Assembly: GCF_001399755.1 (NCBI RefSeq)
Contig: NZ_LJCP01000010.1
Location: forward strand, 496,001-560,000
Source of the DNA: Thiohalorhabdus denitrificans
GTDB taxonomy: Bacteria > Pseudomonadota > Gammaproteobacteria > Thiohalorhabdales > Thiohalorhabdaceae
Reading direction: 5' to 3'
Length of the DNA: 64,000 nt
Part shown: positions 53,023 to 55,428 of the stretch, piece by piece
How the letters are laid out: each line of letters opens with the position of its first letter
How positions within the stretch are numbered: the stretch's first letter is position 1
Notes under the pieces: generated by a model
Seen by the model: the letters and a program-made list of their open reading frames with translations, nothing else
Databases searched by the model: none
Told to the model about the DNA's origin: nothing
Position numbers and translations under genes: made by a program

Positions 53023-53385
53023 ATGTTTTATACCGCCGCGGAAGTGCTTCCCCAGGAGGACAAGGTGTCCCGGCGCCTTGGAATCATCGCCGACATCCTG
53101 TTCCGCCGCAGCCGCAAGGATTTCAATATCCGCGTCGGGGAGCGGGAGCTGCGCTACACGGACAGCCCCCGGTTCGTTATCATCTTCGACAGCCCGCGCA
53201 CCGTGCGCCGCCTCATCCTCCGCGCCAACGAATACCGGGCGGCGGAGGCCTTCGTGGACAAGCACCTGGACATCGAGGGCGACCTGATCGCCGGGCTGAA
53301 GACCAAGAACGCCCTCATCGAGCGGGCCCCCACCCTGCGCTTGGGCGAGAAGCTCAAGATCCTGTTCACCCTGCTGCGAATCTGA
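53023..53385 (+). CDS. Stand-alone N-terminal domain of cyclopropane-fatty-acid synthase
   Basis: 120 residues. RRSRKDFNIRVGERELRYTD and LILRANEYRAAEAFVDKHLD then IEGDLIAGL match the non-catalytic N-terminal domain of CFA synthases, where it binds the membrane lipid. In E. coli Cfa it is fused to the methyltransferase. Here a TGA ends it 5 bases before the methyltransferase gene in a different frame, so the enzyme is split. GAGGAG precedes the ATG. Confidence 0.75.
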   Translation: MFYTAAEVLPQEDKVSRRLGIIADILFRRSRKDFNIRVGERELRYTDSPRFVIIFDSPRTVRRLILRANEYRAAEAFVDKHLDIEGDLIAGLKTKNALIERAPTLRLGEKLKILFTLLRI

Positions 53386-53390
53386 GCGCC

Positions 53391-54281
53391 ATGTTCCGCC
53401 ACACCCGCGCCAAGGACCGCCGGTCCATCGCCCACCATTATGACCTGTCGAACGACTTCTATGGGCTCTTCCTCGACCCGCAGATGGCCTACACCTGCGC
53501 CTACTTCCCCCACGAGGAAGCCAGCCTGGAGGACGCCCAGCGGGCCAAGTTCGACCACATCGCCCGCAAGCTGCGCCTGAAGCCCTACCAGACCCTCCTG
53601 GACATCGGCTGCGGCTGGGGATCCTTCGTGGTGCATGCCTGCAAGCACTACGGGGTCACCGCCCACGGCGTCACCCTGAGCCGCCAGCAGGCGGAGTACG
53701 CCCAGGAGTGGATCCGGCGCGAGGGCCTGGAAGACCAGGCGCTCGTCGAATACAAGGACTACCGGGACCTGGTGGGTGTGGAGCAGTACGACCGCATCAG
53801 CGCCATCGGCATCATCGAGCACGTCGGCCACCGCAACCTGGCCCGGTACTTCGAGGGCATCCACCGCCTCCTCAAGGACAACGGGCTGTTCCTCAACCAC
53901 GGCATCTCCCGCGGCCGGGAATGGCGCCCCAACCCGGGCAGCCGGTGGATCAGCGACCGTGTCTTCCCCGAGGGGGAGCCGCCCTCACTGTCCACGGTCA
54001 TCACCCAGCTTGAGGACAGCCGCTTCGAGGTCCAGGATGTGGAGAACCTCCGCGAGCACTACGCCAAAACCTGCGCCGAATGGGTGGAGCGGTTGCGCAG
54101 CAACCGCGACCAATGCCTCCAGCACGTGGACGAGCAAACCTACCGCACCTGGATCCTCTACCTGGCCATGAGCAGCATCTATTTCGAGGAGGGGGAGATC
54201 TTCCTCTACCAGGTGCTGTCGTCCAAGCGCATGCCCCGCTTCGCCCCCGTACCGCTTACCCGGGAGGACCTCTATGAGTGA
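53391..54281 (+). CDS. Cyclopropane-fatty-acid-synthase-type methyltransferase (catalytic half)
   Basis: 296 residues. RSIAHHYDLSNDFYGLFLDP opens the catalytic domain. DIGCGWGSFVVHACKHYG binds SAM. GIIEHVGHRNLARYFEGIHR contains the conserved EHVG. AMSSIYFEEGEIFLYQVLSS is the C-terminal block of the family. With the preceding gene it makes a complete enzyme of about 416 residues. It methylates unsaturated phospholipid acyl chains to cyclopropane or methyl-branched forms. It overlaps the flavoprotein gene by 8 bases. Confidence 0.85.
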   Translation: MFRHTRAKDRRSIAHHYDLSNDFYGLFLDPQMAYTCAYFPHEEASLEDAQRAKFDHIARKLRLKPYQTLLDIGCGWGSFVVHACKHYGVTAHGVTLSRQQAEYAQEWIRREGLEDQALVEYKDYRDLVGVEQYDRISAIGIIEHVGHRNLARYFEGIHRLLKDNGLFLNHGISRGREWRPNPGSRWISDRVFPEGEPPSLSTVITQLEDSRFEVQDVENLREHYAKTCAEWVERLRSNRDQCLQHVDEQTYRTWILYLAMSSIYFEEGEIFLYQVLSSKRMPRFAPVPLTREDLYE

Positions 54282-55428
54282 GAAGGGATTCGACGCCGAG
54301 GTGCTGGTCATCGGCGGCGGGCCCGGCGGCTCCACCGCCGCCTGGGACCTCGCTCGGCAGGGCGTGGACGTGCTGGTGCTGGACGGGGCCGAGTTCCCCC
54401 GGGTCAAGCTCTGTGCGGGCTGGATCACCCCGCAGATCCTGGACGCCCTGGAGCTGGATCCGGAGGCCTACCCCCACACCATCAGCCCCTTCTCCTCGGC
54501 GGTGCTCTGGGTGGGCGACACCCCCTACCGCACCGACTACCGGCGCCCGGTGAGCTACGGCATCATCCGGGCCGAGTTCGACCACTACCTGCTTGAGCGG
54601 GCCCGGGAGGCGGGGGCGCGGTTCGCCAACGAGACCATCCGCACCGTGGAGGCCGGGCCCGAGGCCTTCGAGGTGACCACCCGGGACGGCAGCACCTACC
54701 GGGCCCCGCTGGCCATCGGCGCGGGGGGATCCAAGGACCCCATCCGCCGCCAGCTCACCACCCACGCTCCGGAGGAGCGCATGGTGGTGACCCTGGAGAG
54801 CGAGACACGGGTGGGCGCCGAGCGCATCCAGGCCCATACCCCCTATTTCGAGGTGCCGGAGCTGTTCCTGGAGCCGGACTTCAACGGCTACGCCTGGTAC
54901 TTCACCAAGGGCGACTTCCTCAACATCGGCATCGGCCGCCTGGGCGACCCCCGCATCCGGGACGCCCATCCGCGCTTCCTGGAGAAACTGCGGGACCTGG
55001 GGCGACTCACTCCCGAACTGGAGGCGGACCTCACCAAGTTCCGCGGCCACCCCTACAAGATCTACGACTCGGTGCCCAACCAGGCCCACGGGGACCGGTT
55101 CCTATTGGTGGGGGATGCGGCGGGGCTGGCCCGCCACTATTCCGGCGAGGGGATCCGTCCGGCGGTGGAGAGCGCCCGCGACGCCGCGGCGGTGGCGCGG
55201 TCGGCCCTGGAGCGGGGCCGGTTCGCGGCGAAGGACCTGGAGGACTACCCCCAGCGGCTCACGGAACGGTACGGGCCGCAGAAGGCGCCCCGTTTCGACC
55301 CCACCCGCTGGATCCCGCACTCCTGGCAGGGGCGGATCGTGGAGGGCATCTGCCGCAGCGACCGGCTGCGCCGGGACTGGGTTTTCGGCAGGGTCTTCCT
55401 GTTCGACCCCGAGGCCGCGGTCTCCTGA
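54274..55428 (+). CDS. Geranylgeranyl-reductase-like FAD oxidoreductase
   Basis: 384 residues. FAD motif VLVIGGGPGGSTAAWDLARQ, then PRVKLCAGWITPQILD, where the Cys (CxGG-like) is typical of the geranylgeranyl reductase family. FLLVGDAAGLARHYSGEGIR is the second FAD block. Such enzymes reduce isolated carbon-carbon double bonds in isoprenoid or lipid chains. The 8-base overlap with the methyltransferase gene suggests both act on the same lipid. The substrate (fatty acyl, quinone or isoprenoid) is not known. Confidence 0.8.
   Translation: MSEKGFDAEVLVIGGGPGGSTAAWDLARQGVDVLVLDGAEFPRVKLCAGWITPQILDALELDPEAYPHTISPFSSAVLWVGDTPYRTDYRRPVSYGIIRAEFDHYLLERAREAGARFANETIRTVEAGPEAFEVTTRDGSTYRAPLAIGAGGSKDPIRRQLTTHAPEERMVVTLESETRVGAERIQAHTPYFEVPELFLEPDFNGYAWYFTKGDFLNIGIGRLGDPRIRDAHPRFLEKLRDLGRLTPELEADLTKFRGHPYKIYDSVPNQAHGDRFLLVGDAAGLARHYSGEGIRPAVESARDAAAVARSALERGRFAAKDLEDYPQRLTERYGPQKAPRFDPTRWIPHSWQGRIVEGICRSDRLRRDWVFGRVFLFDPEAAVS

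Follow-up and report, generated by a model that had tools for sequence, protein, structure and literature searches.

A split cyclopropane fatty acid synthase and a geranylgeranyl reductase-like flavoprotein form a putative tmp-like methyl-branching system in Thiohalorhabdus denitrificans

Introduction

10-Methyl fatty acids serve as biomarkers. In actinobacteria such fatty acids (10-methylstearate) are made by the bfaAB (tmsAB) system (PMC7791843, PMC5660069), while the tmpBA operons (ten-methyl-palmitate; Blitzblau et al. 2021, PMC7791843) consist of a gene for a methyltransferase of the cyclopropane fatty acid synthase (CFAS) family followed by a gene for a flavoprotein resembling geranylgeranyl reductases (GGR). 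The TmpB proteins of the tmpBA systems of Marinobacter, Thiohalospira and Desulfobacter formed 10-methylene fatty acids in E. coli, and TmpA, the GGR-like putative reductase, showed no activity in yeast or in E. coli grown aerobically (PMC7791843). For the two protein families concerned, it is known that separating the domains of the E. coli CFAS into two proteins significantly lowers its activity (reviewed in PMC11387697), and that, among the motifs described for the GGR superfamily, Cys47 is essential in the Sulfolobus enzyme (PMC10821996).

Here we describe a locus of Thiohalorhabdus denitrificans, situated in a stretch of 64,000 nucleotides (the window), that resembles tmpBA in having a CFAS-family methyltransferase gene directly upstream of a gene for a TmpA homologue. 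It differs from tmpBA in that TmpB is one bi-domain protein, whereas each of the three genomes of the genus encodes the corresponding domains as two proteins in two frames, and in that its methyltransferase lies, in the best trees, on another branch of the CFAS family than TmpB. With bfaAB the locus shares the logic of a methyltransferase combined with a flavoprotein reductase; however, BfaA is an unrelated protein of the FAD oxidase type (family as in PMC7791843), to which the GGR-type flavoprotein of the window does not belong, the bfaAB gene order is the opposite one, and BfaB is a single chain. The first-pass annotation of the window had stated that known methyl-branching pairs use a different flavoprotein family, which is contradicted by the GGR-like TmpA of the tmpBA pairs (PMC7791843), and the idea of an undescribed type of pathway was therefore abandoned, tmpBA having already been published. 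What is new is a separate split lineage of the gene trio, that is, a split version of the known tmp system and not a new type of pathway. Outside the actinobacteria the reductase step is still putative, and the occurrence of the trio in uncultured Rokubacteria, Nitrospinota and Methylomirabilota names genes on which it can be tested.

Results and Discussion

Organization of the locus

The trio (Table 1) is flanked by an acylphosphatase gene upstream and an RND adaptor gene downstream, both on the opposite strand, and is therefore a stand-alone unit. The genes for the two CFAS halves lie in different frames, and those for the methyltransferase and the flavoprotein overlap by 8 nt (54274-54281). 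The open reading frame coordinates agree exactly with the 5-base gap, different frames and 8-base overlap reported earlier; the accompanying expression "fused by overlap" is loose, as the genes overlap but the proteins are separate. No signal above chance for a sigma-70 promoter or a terminator was found around the operon.

Table 1. Features of the split CFAS/flavoprotein locus (window coordinates).
Feature	Coordinates	Strand	Basis
Stand-alone CFA-synthase N-domain (N-half), putative lipid-binding subunit, SCP2-like, 120 aa	53023-53385	+	upstream AGGAG ribosome-binding site
Gap of 5 nt between the genes for the CFAS halves, at the position of the interdomain linker	53386-53390	+	ORF coordinates
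Catalytic domain of a CFAS-type SAM methyltransferase, lacking the N-domain, 296 aa	53391-54281	+	PF02353 match
FAD oxidoreductase of the GGR superfamily, homologous to TmpA, 384 aa	54274-55428	+	motifs and fold

Properties of the three proteins

The methyltransferase belongs to the CMAS/CFAS family (PF02353, E 4.7e-91), has CfaB as its best NCBIfam match, and finds its best solved relatives among bi-domain CFA synthases (5z9o, 7qos, 6bqc), with which it aligns over the catalytic domains only; the N-terminal lipid-binding domain, which in CFA synthases is part of the same chain, is encoded here by a separate gene. The bicarbonate ligands (Cys139, Glu239, His266, Ile268 and Tyr317 in E. coli numbering) are all present as C36, E143, H170, I172 and Y224, while T35 and I142 replace Ser138 and Phe238 of CFAS.

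The only Pfam match of the N-half, DUF7884, scores 16.6 bits against a cut-off of 27, but a profile built from stand-alone N-halves picks up numerous full-length CFASs at their N-terminal ends. The best structural match of its AlphaFold model (pLDDT 83) is the N-domain of the Aquifex CFAS (7qos residues 5-86, Z 7.5), followed by SCP2 proteins including UbiJ (Z 5.4). Since these Z values are middling, the kinship of the N-half with the CFAS N-domain rests on sequence profile and structure together. UbiJ-SCP2 is a stand-alone SCP2-like lipid-binding protein found alongside the Ubi flavoprotein hydroxylases and methyltransferases, and the trio likewise combines a stand-alone SCP2-like protein with an FAD enzyme and a SAM methyltransferase. 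This likeness is an analogy only, as UbiJ belongs to a different pathway, that of ubiquinone, and is matched at the Z value given above. Both CFAS halves are homologous to the domains of the E. coli and P. aeruginosa CFA synthases, including the bicarbonate ligands, but those enzymes are single chains whereas the present one is naturally split.

The flavoprotein is a member of the GGR superfamily, with TIGR02032 as its best NCBIfam match (157.3 bits, a near miss below the cut-off of 158.8). Its AlphaFold model (pLDDT 92) has the GGR fold, the top Foldseek matches in the PDB being the archaeal GGRs 4opt, 3atq and 3oz2 (TM 0.69-0.72). The superfamily motifs GxGxxG (GGGPGG), Cys47, RxxFD (R99xxFD103) and LxGD (LVGD278-281) are present, and Cys47, Arg99, Phe102, Asp103, Leu278, Gly280 and Asp281 are invariant in 32 homologues. 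Of the GGR motif PxxYxWxFP, the core YxWxF (starting at Y206) is kept, while both prolines are replaced in the window protein (DFNGYAWYFTK) and in most TmpA homologues. The flavoprotein resembles the archaeal geranylgeranyl/digeranylgeranylglycerophospholipid reductases (3oz2, 3atq) in fold (TM 0.71-0.72), Cys47, RxxFD and LxGD, but differs from them in the motif prolines, in being paired with a CFAS-type methyltransferase, and in that its closest gene neighbours do not include one for a ferredoxin. These features bear out the earlier assignment of a GGR-type oxidoreductase next to the split CFAS. It shares 33-40% of its residues with the flavoproteins encoded in fused-CFAS operons.

Conservation of the split within the genus

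The split and the three-gene order were found in all three genomes of the genus examined (the window genome G000, G001 and G002), the N-half being kept in each of them. The CFAS halves are 81-89% (G001) and 50-57% (G002) identical to those of the window, and the gap between them measures 5 nt in the window and G001, and 10 nt with another frame relation in G002. The split is not a sequencing error, since both other genomes have it too, one of them with another spacing and frame. The fused state of CFAS is the common one, and the frame upstream of the methyltransferase start remains open over a long distance (429 codons in all), which could point to an artefact or the remnant of a pseudogene. 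Such an origin is nevertheless very improbable and was rejected: besides the recurrence in three genomes, the dN/dS values between the window and G001 (0.12-0.18 for the three genes, 0.12 for the methyltransferase) indicate purifying selection on both halves, the first gene has a good ribosome-binding site, and split loci occur in 22 cases elsewhere. The lipid-binding and methyltransferase halves annotated as two genes are hence real.

Pairing of methyltransferase and flavoprotein across bacteria

The distribution of the pair was surveyed in 80 named loci with flanks of approximately 4 kb per side. In about 77 of the 80 loci the flavoprotein has a CFAS-type methyltransferase as its neighbour: in 54 of them, from many phyla and a few truncated by the end of a contig, a full-length CFAS gene directly precedes the flavoprotein gene, and in 22 (L061-L081, L097) the trio is present as three separate genes. 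This co-conservation, proposed in the first-pass annotation as a check on its hypothesis, thus holds for the pair as well as for the trio. The loci include a tmpBA-type pair of Marinobacter xestospongiae (L135), and in 10 of 11 gammaproteobacterial loci outside the genus a full-length CFAS gene is followed directly by that of a flavoprotein homologue. No fourth conserved partner gene, such as one for a ferredoxin, was found across the phyla within these flanks.

The 22 split loci come from Rokuibacteriota, Methylomirabilota, Nitrospinota, Binatota, Tectimicrobiota, Myxococcota and Pseudomonadota, and the trio is hence present in at least seven phyla. In all 22, matches to the N-half profile are located directly upstream of the flavoprotein, and the gene order is N-half, flavoprotein, methyltransferase (N-GGR-MT), in contrast to N-MT-GGR in the window and to tmpBA. 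As N-MT-GGR matches the order of the fused operons, we infer that it is the simpler ancestral arrangement. No gene-level publication on methyl-branched fatty acids of Methylomirabilis or Rokubacteria was found in the literature searched. Three loci show irregularities: a Magnetococcales MAG encodes a TmpA-like flavoprotein (L112:3980-5101) whose 4 kb flanks contain no CFAS gene, and the flavoprotein of an Acidobacteriota MAG (L130:775-1944, two ORFs) and the truncated methyltransferase of a Rokubacteria MAG (L078:5135-5854) may each reflect a frameshift, decay or an assembly error.

Phylogeny and active-site signature

The methyltransferases of the window and the split loci form one clade (97/95) beside the CfaB-type synthases (100/99) and apart from TmpB, and one clade (99/98) likewise unites the flavoproteins of the split loci with those of the window genus and of two spirochaetes. 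These trees favour, but do not prove, that the split lineage arose separately, since the AU test did not reject a grouping of the window methyltransferase with TmpB (p 0.11) or of the window flavoprotein with TmpA (p 0.21). Because the methyltransferase groups with CfaB-type enzymes and not with TmpB, its product is not deduced from close kin. The two spirochaetal MAGs (Leptospirales, Spirochaetia; L059:2728-5149, L060:2800-5152) combine a flavoprotein of the split clade with a full-length CFAS close to TmpB, a mixed pairing that suggests a swap of partners.

Positions 138 and 238 (E. coli numbering) adjoin the bicarbonate-site residues Cys139 and Glu239, which, with the other ligands, are also intact in the split-locus methyltransferases (C139 is unreadable in the truncated L078). 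In a set that omits the degenerate G002 enzyme described below and gapped or aberrant rows, all 82 GGR-paired methyltransferases of the tree carry Thr138 together with Leu, Ile, Val or Met at 238, whereas 31 of 35 unpaired enzymes carry Ser138 and Phe238; three of the four exceptions are the TmpB-clade orphans of the genus (see below). On the tree the changes arose twice, once for each of the two pairings, which is too few for a statistical test; an independent-pairs test had three pairs, a number that cannot reach significance. The locus thereby yields a two-residue hypothesis, according to which Ser138Thr and the change of Phe238 to Leu, Ile or Val would turn a cyclopropane synthase into a methylene former.

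Proposed pathway and role of the detached N-domain

With a probability of roughly 0.6, we consider the trio to be a split, tmp-like methyl-branching system contained in one transcription unit. The anatomy of the genes, the identities of the domains, the intact ligands, the conserved trio and the homology to tmpBA are observed here, and the formation of 10-methylene fatty acids is known for TmpB relatives only. The product of the methyltransferase, the activity of the reductase and the joint action of the three proteins are extrapolated from TmpB and the GGR family, and methyl transfer followed by reduction, as suggested in the first-pass annotation, is the best explanation on that basis. The replaced prolines of the GGR motif, the inactivity of TmpA in the aerobic hosts and the position of the methyltransferase beside CfaB-type enzymes speak against this reading, as does the decay of the methyltransferase in G002 (see below). 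The SCP2-like N-half would bind the acyl chains of membrane phospholipids and present them to the methyltransferase, which would place the methyl group of SAM on a cis double bond that probably lies mid-chain (Delta9/Delta11). No cyclopropane ring would be closed, and the acyl chain would be released in a methylene-branched (or olefinic) form. The GGR-type flavoprotein, with FADH2, would then reduce the isolated C=C bond, resulting in a saturated branched chain of the 10-methyl type. Of the substrates named earlier, isoprenoid or fatty acyl chains, the latter appear much likelier, based on the demonstrated activity of TmpB and the CFAS type of the methyltransferase.

The natural split is a counter-example to the lowered activity of the domain-separated E. 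coli CFAS. That the split is conserved, although separation of the domains is costly in E. coli, suggests that the free lipid-binding part has some purpose, for example that of being shared with the reductase. Tentatively, and with less confidence than for the system as a whole, the detached N-half may be a shared SCP2-like lipid-presenting subunit for both methyltransferase and reductase, in a small UbiJ-like assembly acting on membrane lipids. Such sharing would account for the N-domain being cut loose and for the position of the reductase gene between the two halves in most phyla. If this is true, bacteria would have, besides tmpBA, a second route to methyl-branched membrane lipids that evolved on its own.

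Alternative functions and a second TmpB-type enzyme

The affinity of the methyltransferase to CfaB, both as its best NCBIfam match and among its nearest full-length relatives, its complete bicarbonate site, which is needed for cyclopropanation, and the reduction of isoprenoids by the closest solved relatives of the flavoprotein would fit two halves forming an ordinary cyclopropane synthase, with the flavoprotein acting on a different lipid, be it an isoprenoid, a quinone or an unsaturated acyl chain. We regard this as improbable, given the strict pairing of CFAS-type methyltransferase and flavoprotein across phyla, the methylene product published for TmpB, and the replacement of Ser138 and Phe238 in the paired enzymes. 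Slightly less improbable, though still doubtful, is that the real partner of the flavoprotein is encoded elsewhere and that the split methyltransferase is partly redundant and decaying in one species. The window genome possesses an intact, unlinked CFAS of 428 aa (L002:1429-2715, minus strand; G000:C5:20979-21767), which nests, together with its orthologues in G001 and G002 (L154, L147), in the TmpB clade. These orphans, conserved across the genus with one in each of the three genomes, have no flavoprotein gene next to them and carry Thr138 and Leu238.

Catalytic residues are missing from the split methyltransferase of G002, with Glu-His-Val changed to Glu-Arg-Ala (EHVG), His266 to Glu and Ile268 to Arg. 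This enzyme evolves fast, with a dN/dS of 0.54-0.60, as compared to 0.20 for the flavoprotein and 0.23-0.27 for the orphan, which are 79% and 77% identical, respectively, to their counterparts. As the methyltransferase decays in this genome while the flavoprotein is conserved, the two need not act together, and the orphan may be an additional, or even the sole, partner of the flavoprotein. On the other hand, G002 is a MAG of 82% completeness, the split methyltransferase is intact and strongly constrained in the window and G001, and the split trio stays together in the 22 foreign loci; we therefore retain the split, tmp-like system as the preferred reading. The frame of the G002 split methyltransferase (L046:4838-5731, minus strand; equivalent to L058:2434-3327) is still open, and its HYD motif has been lost as well. 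Both G001 and G002 also contain members of a further CFAS-like group (L151, L155, L165, L143 and L156), which have Gln instead of His266 and Glu-Ala instead of Glu-His at positions 239-240.
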